Shown here piece after piece: positions 10,602-40,370 of a DNA stretch of 41,314 nucleotides. Position 1 is the first letter of the stretch. Each line of letters starts with the position of its first letter. The stretch covers positions 1-41,314 of the forward strand of contig JADHWK010000018.1 of NCBI GenBank assembly GCA_016783505.1, given 5' to 3'. Below the pieces are notes generated by a model, which did not search any database, was not told the DNA's origin, and saw only the letters and a list, made by a program, of their open reading frames with translations. The stretch comes from Candidatus Zhuqueibacterota bacterium. Its GTDB lineage: Bacteria > BS750m-G25. The position numbers and the translations under genes are program-made.

Positions 10602-10650
10602 GTCCCGTCCCGAAGCCTCGGGATTCGGGACAACATCCTCGACGAGCATA
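10602..10650. repeat. CCCGAAGC-type palindrome plus shared 21-mer
   Basis: GTCCCG, then CCCGAAGCCTCGGG, then ATTCGGGAC form a nested palindrome at 10602-10631. The next 21 nt (10629-10649) recur exactly at 17007-17027 in another intergenic gap. Confidence 0.65.
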
Positions 10651-25683: not shown

Positions 25684-25997
25684 CTGGACGCCCTAACATT
25701 CTAATCTTCCGAAAAATATCAACTGGGATTTTATAATACTCCGAATGTAGGATGACAATTTTTACTCTAAGAAAGTCGAAAATACAAATTAGTTTAGACC
25801 TCGTTAGGACACTTTTTCTATGGAGGTCTAAATATCCATATTTCACATACTTATTAGGAATTGTCATTTTGATCCCGAAACTTCGGGATCAAAAAGTATC
25901 CAAAACAATAATCTTTTTATGACTCAATTTGACAAGGTCTGTCATTATAGATATTTCGTGACATTGGCCTATGTTGGTTAAAAAAAAGGGATGGGGA
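25684..25997. repeat. intergenic stretch with two inverted repeats before the DUF4340 gene
   Basis: TTTAGACCTC (25793-25802) and GAGGTCTAAA (25823-25832) form a perfect 10-bp inverted repeat with a 20-nt loop. TTTTGATCCCGAA and TTCGGGATCAAAA (25867-25894) form a 13-bp stem around AC and carry the CCCGAA/TTCGGG core. TTGACA at 25929-25934 could be a -35 box, but only a weak -10 (TATTTC) follows at the right distance. Confidence 0.6.
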
Positions 25998-27001: not shown

Positions 27002-27064
27002 GGGGCTGTAGCTCAGTTGGGAGAGCAGTCCGACGTTGGCAGTCGGACGGGTCAGGGGTTCGAC
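27002..27064 (+). pseudogene. degenerate, truncated tRNA-Ala
   Basis: Acceptor 5' strand GGGGCTG, the D-arm GCTCAGTTGGGAGAGC, the variable bases GGGTC and the start of the T-arm AGGGGTTCGA are the same as, or very near to, the intact tRNA-Ala copies downstream. The anticodon arm (27027-27047, GTCCGAC/GTCGGAC around GTTGGCA) is 4 nt longer than the usual 17. The sequence breaks off in the T-loop, with no acceptor 3' strand. TTGACT at 26984 looks like a -35 box with no -10 left at proper spacing. It lies 8 nt before the GIY-YIG start codon. Confidence 0.8.
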
Positions 27065-27072
27065 AGTTTAGG

Positions 27073-27327
27073 ATGAGCGGGTACGTTTATATTTTGCAAA
27101 GTAAAAAGAATTTCCGATATTATATTGGTAGCACCAAGGATATTAAAAGAAGGTTAGAAGAACATCATCAGGGTAAATCCAAGGCTACGCGAAATATAAG
27201 ACCGTTAGAATTAGTCTATTGTAAACACTACTCAATATTAAAAGAAGCCAGGCAACAAGAGAGGAGGTTGAAATCTTTTAAAAGAAGAAAGATCATTGAA
27301 AGGATAATAGAGAAGTCAAAGGAATAA
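27073..27327 (+). CDS. small GIY-YIG nuclease-domain protein (tRNA-Ala locus)
   Basis: An 84-aa single-domain protein. The GIY-YIG core is visible as GYVYIL (residues 3-8) and YYIGSTKDIKRRLEEH (16-31), with the helix Arg at 26/27 and a conserved Glu candidate at 59-63 (KEARQQERRL). The C-terminus is strongly basic. The UvrC/UPF0213-type GIY-YIG fold cuts DNA with one metal ion; no other domain is present to set specificity. The gene sits between a truncated tRNA-Ala 8 nt upstream and an intact tRNA-Ala starting 8 nt after its stop. Its last 32 nt are part of the 115-bp direct repeat found again at 30842. A second GIY-YIG ORF in the window sits in the same kind of context at a tRNA-Pro, which points to a mobile, tRNA-associated family. 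Confidence 0.85.
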   Translation: MSGYVYILQSKKNFRYYIGSTKDIKRRLEEHHQGKSKATRNIRPLELVYCKHYSILKEARQQERRLKSFKRRKIIERIIEKSKE

Positions 27328-27410
27328 ATTTTTATGGGGCTGTAGCTCAGTTGGGAGAGCACTTGAATGGCATTCAAGGGGTCAGGGGTTCAACTCCCCT
27401 CAGCTCCACA
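27296..27410. repeat. 115-bp direct repeat, left copy (contains tRNA-Ala)
   Basis: From TTGAAAGGATAATAG through CTCCACA, all 115 bases are identical to 30842-30956. It covers the last codons of the GIY-YIG ORF, an 8-nt spacer and the whole tRNA-Ala. It is the left border of the serine-biosynthesis cassette. Confidence 0.95.
27336..27408 (+). tRNA. tRNA-Ala (anticodon GGC), copy 1
   Basis: 73 nt. The acceptor GGGGCTG pairs with CAGCTCC, the D-stem is GCTC/GAGC, the anticodon stem CTTGA/TCAAG holds loop ATGGCAT (anticodon GGC), and the T-arm is AGGGG-TTCAACT-CCCCT. No CCA is encoded. It has no promoter of its own nearby and probably depends on transcription through the GIY-YIG ORF. Confidence 0.93.
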
Positions 27411-38592: not shown

Positions 38593-39095
38593 TCGAGCGA
38601 ACCGTCGAGTTTTTAAGGTGGCTTCCCAACGAAATTATTACCCTACTGATCGCCATGCTCCCCATTGCGGAGCTGCGGGGGGCCATTCCCTGGGCATTGA
38701 CCGGTGGGGGACTGACCTGGCATCAGGCCTACCTGTTCGCAGCTATAGGAAATTTCCTTCCCGTAATACCGTTACTGCTCCTCATCGAACCCCTTTCCAA
38801 CTGGCTCCGGGGATACAAAGCCTTTGACATCTTTTTTGCCTGGCTTTTCGCCAGGACCCGTCGAAGGGGAAAATTGGTAGAAAGATATGAGGCTTTGGGG
38901 CTGGCCCTTTTTGTAAGCATCCCTCTGCCCGTTACGGGAGCGTGGACGGGTGCGGTGGCAGCATTTGTGTTCGGCATTCGACTTAGTTATTCCATTATAG
39001 CCATCATAGCCGGTATCCTCATCGCTGGGGTGATCGTAACCCTGGCCTCGTTAGGAGTCATGGAAACTATAAAAGCAATTGGAATATACCCATAA
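38589..39095 (+). CDS. small multidrug export family membrane protein (COG2426)
   Basis: A 168-aa integral membrane protein with about four to five hydrophobic segments. The family signature is ITLLIAMLPIAELRGAIPWA near the start, followed by AIGNFLPVIPLLLLIEPL and, after a cytoplasmic Arg/Lys loop, LFVSIPLPVTGAWTGAVAAF. This is the Sm_multidrug_ex (PF06695) pattern; despite the name, transport of drugs is not well shown for the family. I place the start at ATG 38589, which overlaps the pcm stop as ATGA and has AAGGGTGG upstream, rather than the earlier GTG at 38580. Confidence 0.88.
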   Translation: MIERTVEFLRWLPNEIITLLIAMLPIAELRGAIPWALTGGGLTWHQAYLFAAIGNFLPVIPLLLLIEPLSNWLRGYKAFDIFFAWLFARTRRRGKLVERYEALGLALFVSIPLPVTGAWTGAVAAFVFGIRLSYSIIAIIAGILIAGVIVTLASLGVMETIKAIGIYP

Positions 39096-39126
39096 GAAAT
39101 TTAAGGACATGGAAAAATATTTTTTC

Positions 39127-39155
39127 TTGACAAATAAATTAAATTTATGTATATT
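39127..39155 (+). promoter_or_regulatory. promoter before the degenerate tRNA-Pro / GIY-YIG locus
   Basis: TTGACA at 39127-39132, a 17-nt spacer, then TATATT at 39150-39155. The expected start at about 39162 is where the degenerate tRNA-Pro begins. Confidence 0.85.
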
Positions 39156-39161
39156 TGACAG

Positions 39162-39288
39162 CGGAGGTGCTTCCCCCTTGTGGCGTAGTGCGGCCATACG
39201 GGCCGTAAGAGGCTATGCTACTCGTCTGCGTAGCGTCCTACGGAAATGGGGTTCATGGGGTCGTCCCGAAGCTTCGGGATCGCTCCGA
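39162..39288 (+). pseudogene. degenerate tRNA-Pro with palindrome in place of the T-arm
   Basis: Blocks of the intact tRNA-Pro(GGG) downstream recur in order: CGGAG (39162), GGCGTAGTGCGG as a worn D-arm, a TAGCG block, ATGGGGTTCA (the anticodon loop with its 3' stem), GGGGTCG, and the acceptor end CGCTCCGA (39281-39288). About 35 nt are inserted in the D-loop. The T-arm is replaced by TCCCGAAGCTTCGGGA (39264-39279), the palindrome found in many intergenic gaps here. It starts right at the promoter, so it was probably the original tRNA gene of this locus. Confidence 0.65.
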
Positions 39289-39303
39289 CGAAGAGGATCA
39301 GAG
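39248..39303. repeat. 56-bp direct repeat, left copy (tRNA-Pro 3' part with palindrome)
   Basis: Matches 39660-39715 at 51 of 56 positions, including GAAGAGGATCAGAG after the tRNA end. The two copies bracket the GIY-YIG ORF and the intact tRNA-Pro. Confidence 0.85.
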
Positions 39304-39313
39304 AGCCATCTTA

Positions 39314-39604
39314 ATGTTTTACGTTTACATTTTGGAAAGTCTGAAGGATGGAAAATTATATACCGGATACACATCTAACCTTAAAAGACGATTGGAACGC
39401 CATAACATGGGATTGGTTAGGTCGACCCAAAATCGGAAACCTTTAAAACTAGTATATTATGAAGCATTCTCCAGCAGGAGTGAGGCGATGATTCGGGAAA
39501 AGTATTTTAAGTCACCCCAGGGTGGAAGAGAAAAAATAAAGTTAATAGCTAACTTTTCCCAGGAGAAGCTAAAATATTTTTCGGAGCGTGGCGCAGTCCG
39601 GTAG
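39314..39604 (+). CDS. small GIY-YIG nuclease-domain protein (tRNA-Pro locus)
   Basis: A 96-aa single-domain protein. The core is MFYVYILESLKDGKLYTGYT (GIY-YIG, with Tyr-Thr-Gly in place of YIG), then NLKRRLERHN and RSEAMIREKYFKS with the candidate catalytic Glu. I start it at ATG 39314 because the family begins with M-x-Y-V-Y-I-L; the frame is open 99 nt further upstream, but that part is degenerate tRNA-Pro sequence. The last residues SERGAVR and the stop TAG (39602-39604) are encoded by the first 23 nt of the intact tRNA-Pro gene, so the ORF and the tRNA overlap. As at the tRNA-Ala locus, a broken tRNA of the same isotype lies upstream and an intact one downstream. Confidence 0.85.
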   Translation: MFYVYILESLKDGKLYTGYTSNLKRRLERHNMGLVRSTQNRKPLKLVYYEAFSSRSEAMIREKYFKSPQGGREKIKLIANFSQEKLKYFSERGAVR

Positions 39605-39655
39605 CGCACCTGAATGGGGTTCAGGGGGTCGCTGGTTCGAATCCAGTCGCTCCGA
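39582..39655 (+). tRNA. tRNA-Pro (anticodon GGG)
   Basis: 74 nt. The acceptor CGGAGCG pairs with CGCTCCG, the D-stem is GCGC/GCGC, the anticodon stem CCTGA/TCAGG holds loop ATGGGGT, and the T-arm is GCTGG-TTCGAAT-CCAGT. No CCA is encoded. Its first 23 nt are also the 3' end of the GIY-YIG ORF. Confidence 0.94.
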
Positions 39656-39659
39656 CTAA

Positions 39660-39715
39660 GGGGTTCAGGGGGTCGTCCCGAAAGTTCGGGATCGCTTCGA
39701 GGAAGAGGATCAGAG
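39660..39715. repeat. 56-bp direct repeat, right copy (second tRNA-Pro remnant)
   Basis: It begins 4 nt after the intact tRNA-Pro and repeats its anticodon 3' side (GGGGTTCAGGGGGTCG), then has CCCGAAAGTTCGGG where the T-arm should be, then a worn acceptor end. The palindrome differs from the left copy but is still self-complementary. Confidence 0.8.
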
Positions 39716-39784
39716 GAATAACAATTGCTCCGGGCAAGGGAATCAGAGATTTCCTGATTAAGCACCGAACGACACCAAGAGGAT

Positions 39785-39812
39785 GGGCACAGGCATGCCG
39801 CTGTGCCCTTTT
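39785..39812 (+). terminator. terminator after the tRNA-Pro locus
   Basis: GGGCACAG (39785-39792) pairs with CTGTGCCC (39801-39808) around GCATGCCG, followed by TTTT. Confidence 0.7.
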
Positions 39813-39840
39813 GATATAGGGGTAAAACAGGAGGAACATT

Positions 39841-40077
39841 ATGAAAGGGGCTTACAAATTTATGGAGGTGGCCATTATCATCGCTGCCATCTCACTGGCG
39901 CTGGGTATTTTCTCCCGGATGCTCATTCTTCCCCTCATTTTCGGATTGGAAGCTCGGGCTTTTCTCAATTTTTCCGGGGTTTGCCTTCTTTTTGCCTTAA
40001 CGTTCGGGGTCGCCCGCATCGTGCTTTTCCTGGAGAACCAAAGCAGTCAGAAGAAAGAAGAAACCGGCCCAGCTTAG
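39841..40077 (+). CDS. small two-helix membrane protein
   Basis: A 78-aa protein with a strong ribosome site (AACAGGAGGAAC). Two membrane segments are clear, at residues 9-31 (VAIIIAAISLALGIFSRMLIL) and 42-64 (FSGVCLLFALTFGVARIVLFL), and the C-terminus is hydrophilic (NQSSQKKEETGPA). I do not recognise a family. It lies alone between a terminator and tRNA-Pro(CGG). A near-perfect hairpin, CAGTAGGCAAT with ATTGCTTACTG (40097-40127), follows the stop and may end its transcript. Confidence 0.75.
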   Translation: MKGAYKFMEVAIIIAAISLALGIFSRMLILPLIFGLEARAFLNFSGVCLLFALTFGVARIVLFLENQSSQKKEETGPA

Positions 40078-40149
40078 ATAAAAGGCTTTAAATTGACAGT
40101 AGGCAATTGACATATCATTGCTTACTGCCACTTGCTTATTTATTAGTAT

Positions 40150-40224
40150 CGGGGCGTAGCGCAGTCCGGTTAGCGCGTCGCGTTCGGGACGCGAAGGTCG
40201 GGAGTTCAAATCTCCCCGCCCCGA
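40150..40224 (+). tRNA. tRNA-Pro (anticodon CGG)
   Basis: 75 nt. The acceptor CGGGGCG pairs with CGCCCCG; the anticodon stem TCGCG/CGCGA holds loop TTCGGGA (anticodon CGG). No CCA is encoded. It is an ordinary, unbroken tRNA-Pro, distinct from the GGG copy at 39582. Confidence 0.93.
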
Positions 40225-40285
40225 CTATTCGTGACAATTACCACAGAATATCACAGAAGACCACAGACTTTCTTTATTAATGAAT

Positions 40286-40370
40286 AATAGCGAAATGGAG
40301 TAATGGATAAATGGAATAATTAATACAACACTCCGATGATCCAAATTATCCAATTATCCAATTCTATTCT
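40286..40370. repeat. imperfect inverted repeat before leuS
   Basis: AATAGCGAAATGGAGTAATG-type sequence on the left is partly complementary to the ATTATCCAATTATCCAATTC-type sequence on the right. Its purine strand resembles the GGAAGAATGG repeats at 23905 and 25658. Confidence 0.45.

Follow-up and report, generated by a model that had tools for sequence, protein, structure and literature searches.

The closest described counterpart of the locus considered here appears, by layout and described behaviour, to be SegB, a free-standing GIY-YIG homing endonuclease of the tRNA region of phages T4 and T6 (PMC2988022, citing Brok-Volchanskaya 2008; PMC13096335). The available extracts on SegB describe recombination that joins the 5' region of the tRNA to the gene end, and also cleavage inside tRNA genes, with RAWTSGAAC as the best motif, and tandem amplification of tRNA-Tyr together with segB (PMC13096335). 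By our own reading, this motif on its other strand resembles the T-loop of tRNA genes. In CPR bacteria, rRNA insertions contain endonuclease ORFs that are mostly LAGLIDADG, with some GIY-YIG, and the GIY-YIG ORFs were judged by the authors to fall outside spread by homing (PMC11270868). REP palindromes, which occur with RAYT transposases, are short, high-copy and mostly intergenic (PMC2817692; PMC3116915). No published description of the bacterial arrangement presented below was found in the literature searched, the nearest subjects being mitochondrial introns, phage SegB, the CPR rRNA insertions, REP sequences and HNH genes in phage-derived mycobacterial tRNA clusters.

When integrative elements with a tyrosine integrase target a tRNA gene, the gene is partly duplicated and its function preserved. 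The unit described here differs in its length of approximately 300–400 bp and in having a single nuclease gene without an integrase. It lies in a window of 41,314 nucleotides (the whole stretch of DNA that was analysed), for which a sequence-only reading had proposed the order promoter, broken tRNA-Pro, GIY-YIG ORF, intact tRNA-Pro(GGG) and tRNA-Pro remnant; all of these parts were found in that order when the locus was re-read base by base. Apart from the palindromes, the features given here lie on the forward strand. A sigma-70-like promoter recognised by consensus match (TTGACA-17-TATATT, 39127–39155) is the single promoter-like site found on either strand between 39000 and 40300, and is presumed to be the tRNA promoter, now standing 5' of the whole unit. 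It is followed by a first pseudo-tRNA-Pro (39162–39297), of which the 3' half (39245–39297) is clear and the 5' half weakly tRNA-like, and then by an ORF encoding a single-domain GIY-YIG nuclease of 96 amino acids (39314–39604). The last 23 nt of this ORF overlap the intact tRNA-Pro(GGG) (39582–39656; ARAGORN and Infernal agree), with the ORF stop codon in the D-loop of the tRNA. A second pseudo-tRNA-Pro comprises a 3' half and 3' flank (approximately 39657–39717), and a terminator-like hairpin (39785–39808) forms the end of the presumed transcript. A further intact tRNA-Pro (CGG; 40150–40225), 0.5 kb downstream, is without a nuclease gene.

A 56-bp imperfect direct repeat around the ORF and tRNA had been put forward as the mark of an inserted unit. 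Self-comparison recovers this repeat (39248–39303 and 39660–39715, 91% identity) and its bracketing position, but not as a transposon end: it consists of the 3' half of a damaged, palindrome-marked tRNA-Pro and the 3' flank GAAGAGGATCAGAG. In both remnants TCCCGAnnnnTCGGGA replaces the T-arm; it reads TCCCGAAGCTTCGGGA in the first (39264–39279) and TCCCGAAAGTTCGGGA in the second (39676–39691), and the window has seven such sites where 0.01 would be expected. By ORF list and profile search the GIY-YIG gene is the only recognisable gene of the unit, and an integrase gene is absent. No intron family matches 38900–40300 and the tRNA-Pro is uninterrupted, so the ORF is free-standing and the definition of a group I intron element does not fit. 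The CPR insertions also concern bacterial structured-RNA genes, but there the ORF sits in introns or insertions, whereas here the tRNA is intact beside the ORF and is accompanied by a spare copy.

The 96-residue protein matches PF01541 with an E-value of 7.1e-19 (68.3 bits against a cut-off of 22.6). Residues Y5, Y16, G18, R26, H30 and E62 are invariant in an alignment of 10 family sequences; Y5, Y16, R26, H30 and E62 we take to be the catalytic Tyr, Tyr, Arg, His and Glu of the GIY-YIG family, and the invariant set is that expected of an active nuclease. A confident AlphaFold2 model (pLDDT 88.9) consists of one GIY-YIG domain and a long C-terminal helix, with no separate DNA-binding domain. 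Its nearest folds in the PDB are UPF0213 BH0048, SLX1 (one subunit of a nuclease for branched-DNA repair) and the I-TevI catalytic domain, while the closest sequence profile is 1zg2 (UPF0213, E 2e-16) and the weak PHROG matches are homing endonucleases. UPF0213/SLX1-type proteins (1zg2, 6seh) are therefore closest by both profile and fold; the sampled sister clade differs in not being linked to tRNA genes. Between intact copies, tandem copies included, dN/dS is 0.07–0.35, which indicates that the protein is under purifying selection.

A locus of the same layout had been reported at tRNA-Ala, and is indeed present in the window: a pseudo-tRNA-Ala (27002–27064), whose break falls in the T-loop near canonical position 59, is followed by a GIY-YIG ORF with a PF01541 match (27073–27327) and an intact tRNA-Ala(GGC) (27336–27409), all on the forward strand. 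The anticodon arm of this remnant is a 7-bp hairpin, GTCCGAC-n7-GTCGGAC (27028–27048). Across the genome, PF01541 is found in six places, which are UvrC, one divergent protein of another type (contig C84) and four short ORFs, at tRNA-Pro and tRNA-Ala in the window and at tRNA-Asp (contig C5) and tRNA-Asn (contig C85) elsewhere. Each of the four lies between an intact and a broken tRNA. Copies with mismatched isotypes or without a remnant, which would have spoken against the original proposal, are absent, and a same-isotype remnant accompanies four of four. The part of that proposal placing the broken copy upstream and the intact one downstream holds at Pro, Ala and Asp, but at Asn the broken copy is downstream. 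This tRNA-Asn locus also has a further tRNA-Asn remnant (contig C85, approximately 1880–1960) with two palindromes, one replacing the D-arm and one in the variable region. The four proteins are 31–46% identical to one another while the Asp protein is 64% identical to an Asp relative from Bacteroidota, so the four units are not recent copies of each other.

How general is this arrangement? A scan of one genome per species yielded 80 named relatives from Bacteroidota, Patescibacteria, Omnitrophota, Planctomycetes, Nitrospirae, Deltaproteobacteria and other phyla. A same-strand tRNA lies within 250 bp of 52 of the 80, against 1.1% of random positions in the same DNA; because the search query was made from tRNA-linked proteins, this 65% applies to the present group and not to all GIY-YIG genes. 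The tRNAs within 250 bp are on the same strand in 67 cases and on the opposite strand in 3. The remaining 28 relatives have no annotated tRNA at this distance, and some of these are at other RNA genes or between pseudo-tRNAs. Two relatives adjoin or overlap rnpB, two do so at tmRNA, and one is inside 23S rRNA. At three loci (L088, L095 and L109) the repeats on either side of the ORF read as a pseudo-tRNA with palindrome. One further GIY-YIG ORF (L112) stands after a tRNA that has a group I intron and what looks like an HNH-type ORF. Among short GIY-YIG ORFs sampled across the domain without regard to tRNAs (24 genomes), 11 of 47 are at tRNAs, and in one well-supported sister GIY-YIG clade the figure is 0 of 20. 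An origin in phages or plasmids was considered and rejected, since only distant relatives were found in 3 viral contigs, 20 phage records and 8 plasmid records, none above 60% identity; at the single phage locus inspected, no annotated tRNA adjoins the nuclease relative. The window gene is thus a member of a widespread and apparently selfish bacterial group that lies between intact and broken tRNAs of the same isotype.

The isotype match extends to these relatives. At approximately 30 loci, part of the intact tRNA recurs in the flank on the other side of the ORF, and this piece scores above some 70 tRNAs of other isotypes and above all of 200 shuffles. With these loci, the four units of the same genome and the empty sites described below, the earlier suggestion that insertion is tied to tRNA isotype is supported. 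Among related loci the intact copy is upstream of the ORF in 31 and downstream in 29; what is kept of the tRNA is the 5' part in upstream remnants and the 3' part in downstream ones. Of 16 upstream remnants, nine stop at canonical positions 52–65, around the T-loop (approximately 8e-4 if ends were uniform, for an interval chosen post hoc). When isotype was mapped onto a tree of 128 GIY-YIG proteins with 12 isotypes, 32 changes were required, where shuffles gave a mean of 42.8 and never fewer than 38 (0 of 1000 were as low). Given a short tree of poor resolution, this shows association and not strict fidelity. Isotype agrees with protein lineage in part, 32 changes being needed for 12 isotypes. 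At locus L102 the nearest tRNA is Gly and the remnant is Leu, so the partner is not always the nearest tRNA. This locus had been considered as an undecayed state with two intact tRNA-Gly, which was rejected because its pseudo-tRNA reads as Leu, in agreement with its protein clade; its entry as Gly leaves the tree test slightly conservative.

Gain, amplification and decay can be followed in the genus of Algoriphagus vanfongensis, where tandem arrays (units of 345–414 bp) occur at the tRNAs for Asp, Ala, Met and Leu. One tRNA-Asp locus, whose upstream gene is conserved, is empty in two genomes (G095 and G091), contains a single unit in a third (G059) and has three in tandem in a fourth (G080). 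In a decayed state, genome G074 has palindrome-marked pseudo-tRNAs at this locus and no detected nuclease ORF, and two others (G083 and G069) have traces only. The pseudo-tRNA-Asp units of G074 are tandem and approximately 266 bp long, and the better-preserved ones have two palindromes each. Several more genomes are without a unit downstream of the tRNA-Asp pair, with weaker evidence of synteny. Empty, filled and decayed alleles, by which homing endonucleases are recognised, are therefore found at the tRNA-Asp locus of a genus other than that of the window, and this pattern of gain, decay and loss is the one that homing endonucleases would be expected to leave in sequence.

A further feature recurs among the remnants. 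Palindromes of the form CCCGA-n-TCGGG occur at 9.4 per kb in 32 pseudo-tRNAs from many phyla and at 0.079 per kb in flanking DNA, an enrichment of approximately 120-fold (type TCCCGA-n-TCGGGA). The arm that they replace or interrupt may be D, anticodon, variable or T, and since little else in the tRNA has changed in many cases, the palindrome itself is frequently the principal damage. A single fixed position that could serve as a cleavage mark was sought and rejected, as all four of these arms are hit, even within the Asp group. In an intact tRNA-Leu(CAG) of another genome (G054), the palindrome TCCCGATTACTCGGGA forms the variable arm. The window genome holds 226 copies of TCCCGANNNNTCGGGA, most of them away from any GIY-YIG gene, against none of the reversed control; copies in the window are at 10608, 14785, 22903, 23983 and 25873. 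Some copies, including that at 25873 and those at two other loci (L009 and L016), sit within the loop of larger inverted repeats, with an excess of outer pairing that is not clearly beyond shuffles. Two of the five Y1_Tnp genes of this genome have the palindrome on both sides. The copy number and these flanked genes give the palindrome a REP-like appearance, and the flanked genes point to the Y1 transposases as its mobiliser. It resembles REP/RAYT in being high-copy and extragenic with Y1 transposase genes flanked by copies, but differs in its concentration within spare copies of tRNAs, where it replaces arms. TCCCG-n-CGGGA exceeds its reversed control in 27 of 27 genomes with tRNA units, and genomes without such units have mostly 0–3 copies, counted with a narrower pattern. 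The palindrome may shield the spare copy from cutting, may be drawn to hairpin DNA, or may merely persist in spare copies alone.

From these observations, the ORF is probably a minimal free-standing GIY-YIG homing endonuclease that targets tRNA genes, with the tRNA copies as homology arms; layout, isotype match, the empty, filled, amplified and decayed states, purifying selection and palindrome enrichment all support this at the level of sequence. The nuclease would cut the same-isotype tRNA gene in a unit-free chromosome, often at or near the T-arm, and the break would be repaired from the unit-bearing chromosome, the tRNA copy on either side of the ORF serving as a homology arm, to give tRNA-ORF-tRNA. 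As one tRNA copy is intact, the cell would keep its tRNA, and the spare copy would be broken, mostly by a REP-like palindrome replacing an arm. An ORF 5' of the intact tRNA, as at Pro, is probably cotranscribed from the captured tRNA promoter, and re-cutting or recombination could produce the tandem arrays. Such units, as far as the available extracts on SegB extend, share with it a GIY-YIG catalytic domain, a gene in a tRNA region and tandem units of tRNA and endonuclease. SegB differs in being a phage enzyme reported to be without isotype preference, whereas the bacterial units are chromosomal, isotype-linked and present in many phyla; the palindrome-marked pseudo-tRNA of the same isotype is not described for SegB in those extracts, and the window protein is a single 96-residue domain. 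Several points stand against homing. Isotype fits protein lineage only partially, 28 of the 80 relatives are without an annotated tRNA within 250 bp, and the presence and absence of units was seen in a genus other than that of the Pro locus. The adjoining intact tRNA should itself be cuttable, and no means of avoidance is apparent in the sequence; and the modelled protein appears to lack the separate DNA-binding domain of I-TevI, its nearest predicted folds being UPF0213 and the structure-specific SLX1.

Could the ORF be a passive passenger, caught in tandem duplications at tRNA hot spots, kept through the tRNA promoter and serving a house-keeping role in repair? Spare tRNA copies do occur without a nuclease, as the G074 pseudo-tRNA-Asp arrays without a detectable ORF illustrate, and UPF0213-like proteins are found away from tRNAs. 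We nevertheless consider this unlikely, given that the sister clade of similar size has none of 20 members at tRNAs, that the same family also occurs at rnpB, tmRNA and 23S rRNA, that isotype tracks protein lineage across phyla, and that sister species have empty sites. A highly improbable alternative is an RNA nuclease or toxin directed at tRNA of the matching isotype, which it would cut while the adjoining intact gene refilled the supply: same-strand coupling to an intact tRNA of matching isotype is what such an enzyme would show, but it does not predict 5' or 3' remnants according to side, tandem arrays or the sites at rnpB, tmRNA and 23S rRNA, and the weak family matches are homing endonucleases. 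To our knowledge, the GIY-YIG enzymes characterised so far are DNA nucleases, which also counts against it.

The palindromes themselves suggest another role, in which hairpins in tRNA-like DNA would be opened by a structure-specific, SLX1-like nuclease, so that REP-like palindromes could be swapped into them. The enrichment in pseudo-tRNAs, the replacement of D, anticodon, variable or T arms, the nearest folds and the palindrome excess in each of the 27 genomes with tRNA units that were counted would all accord with this. We regard it as very unlikely, since the two Y1 transposase genes flanked on both sides suggest these as the mobiliser, G074 has palindrome-marked pseudo-tRNAs without the ORF, and most of the 226 copies are away from any GIY-YIG gene. 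A broader reading is more speculative and, in our estimate, rather doubtful: the units may be general chromosomal mini-parasites of tRNA, tmRNA, RNase P RNA and rRNA genes, in which the nuclease and a REP-like palindrome, swapped into an arm of the spare copy and blocking re-cutting or stabilising the unit, make up a two-part mobile system.

Homing endonucleases of tRNA regions are known from phages, and the homing reading would place a similar strategy on bacterial chromosomes in many phyla. It offers a simple and testable rule, that the target is predicted by the partner tRNA, and would account for many small genes annotated as "GIY-YIG nuclease family" and for broken tRNA copies in annotation. 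The group could also be a source of compact nucleases whose targets can be predicted. Two systems that are usually separate, homing nucleases and REP palindromes, would be linked, and the question of why cells put up with a nuclease directed against an essential tRNA gene becomes one that experiments can address directly.
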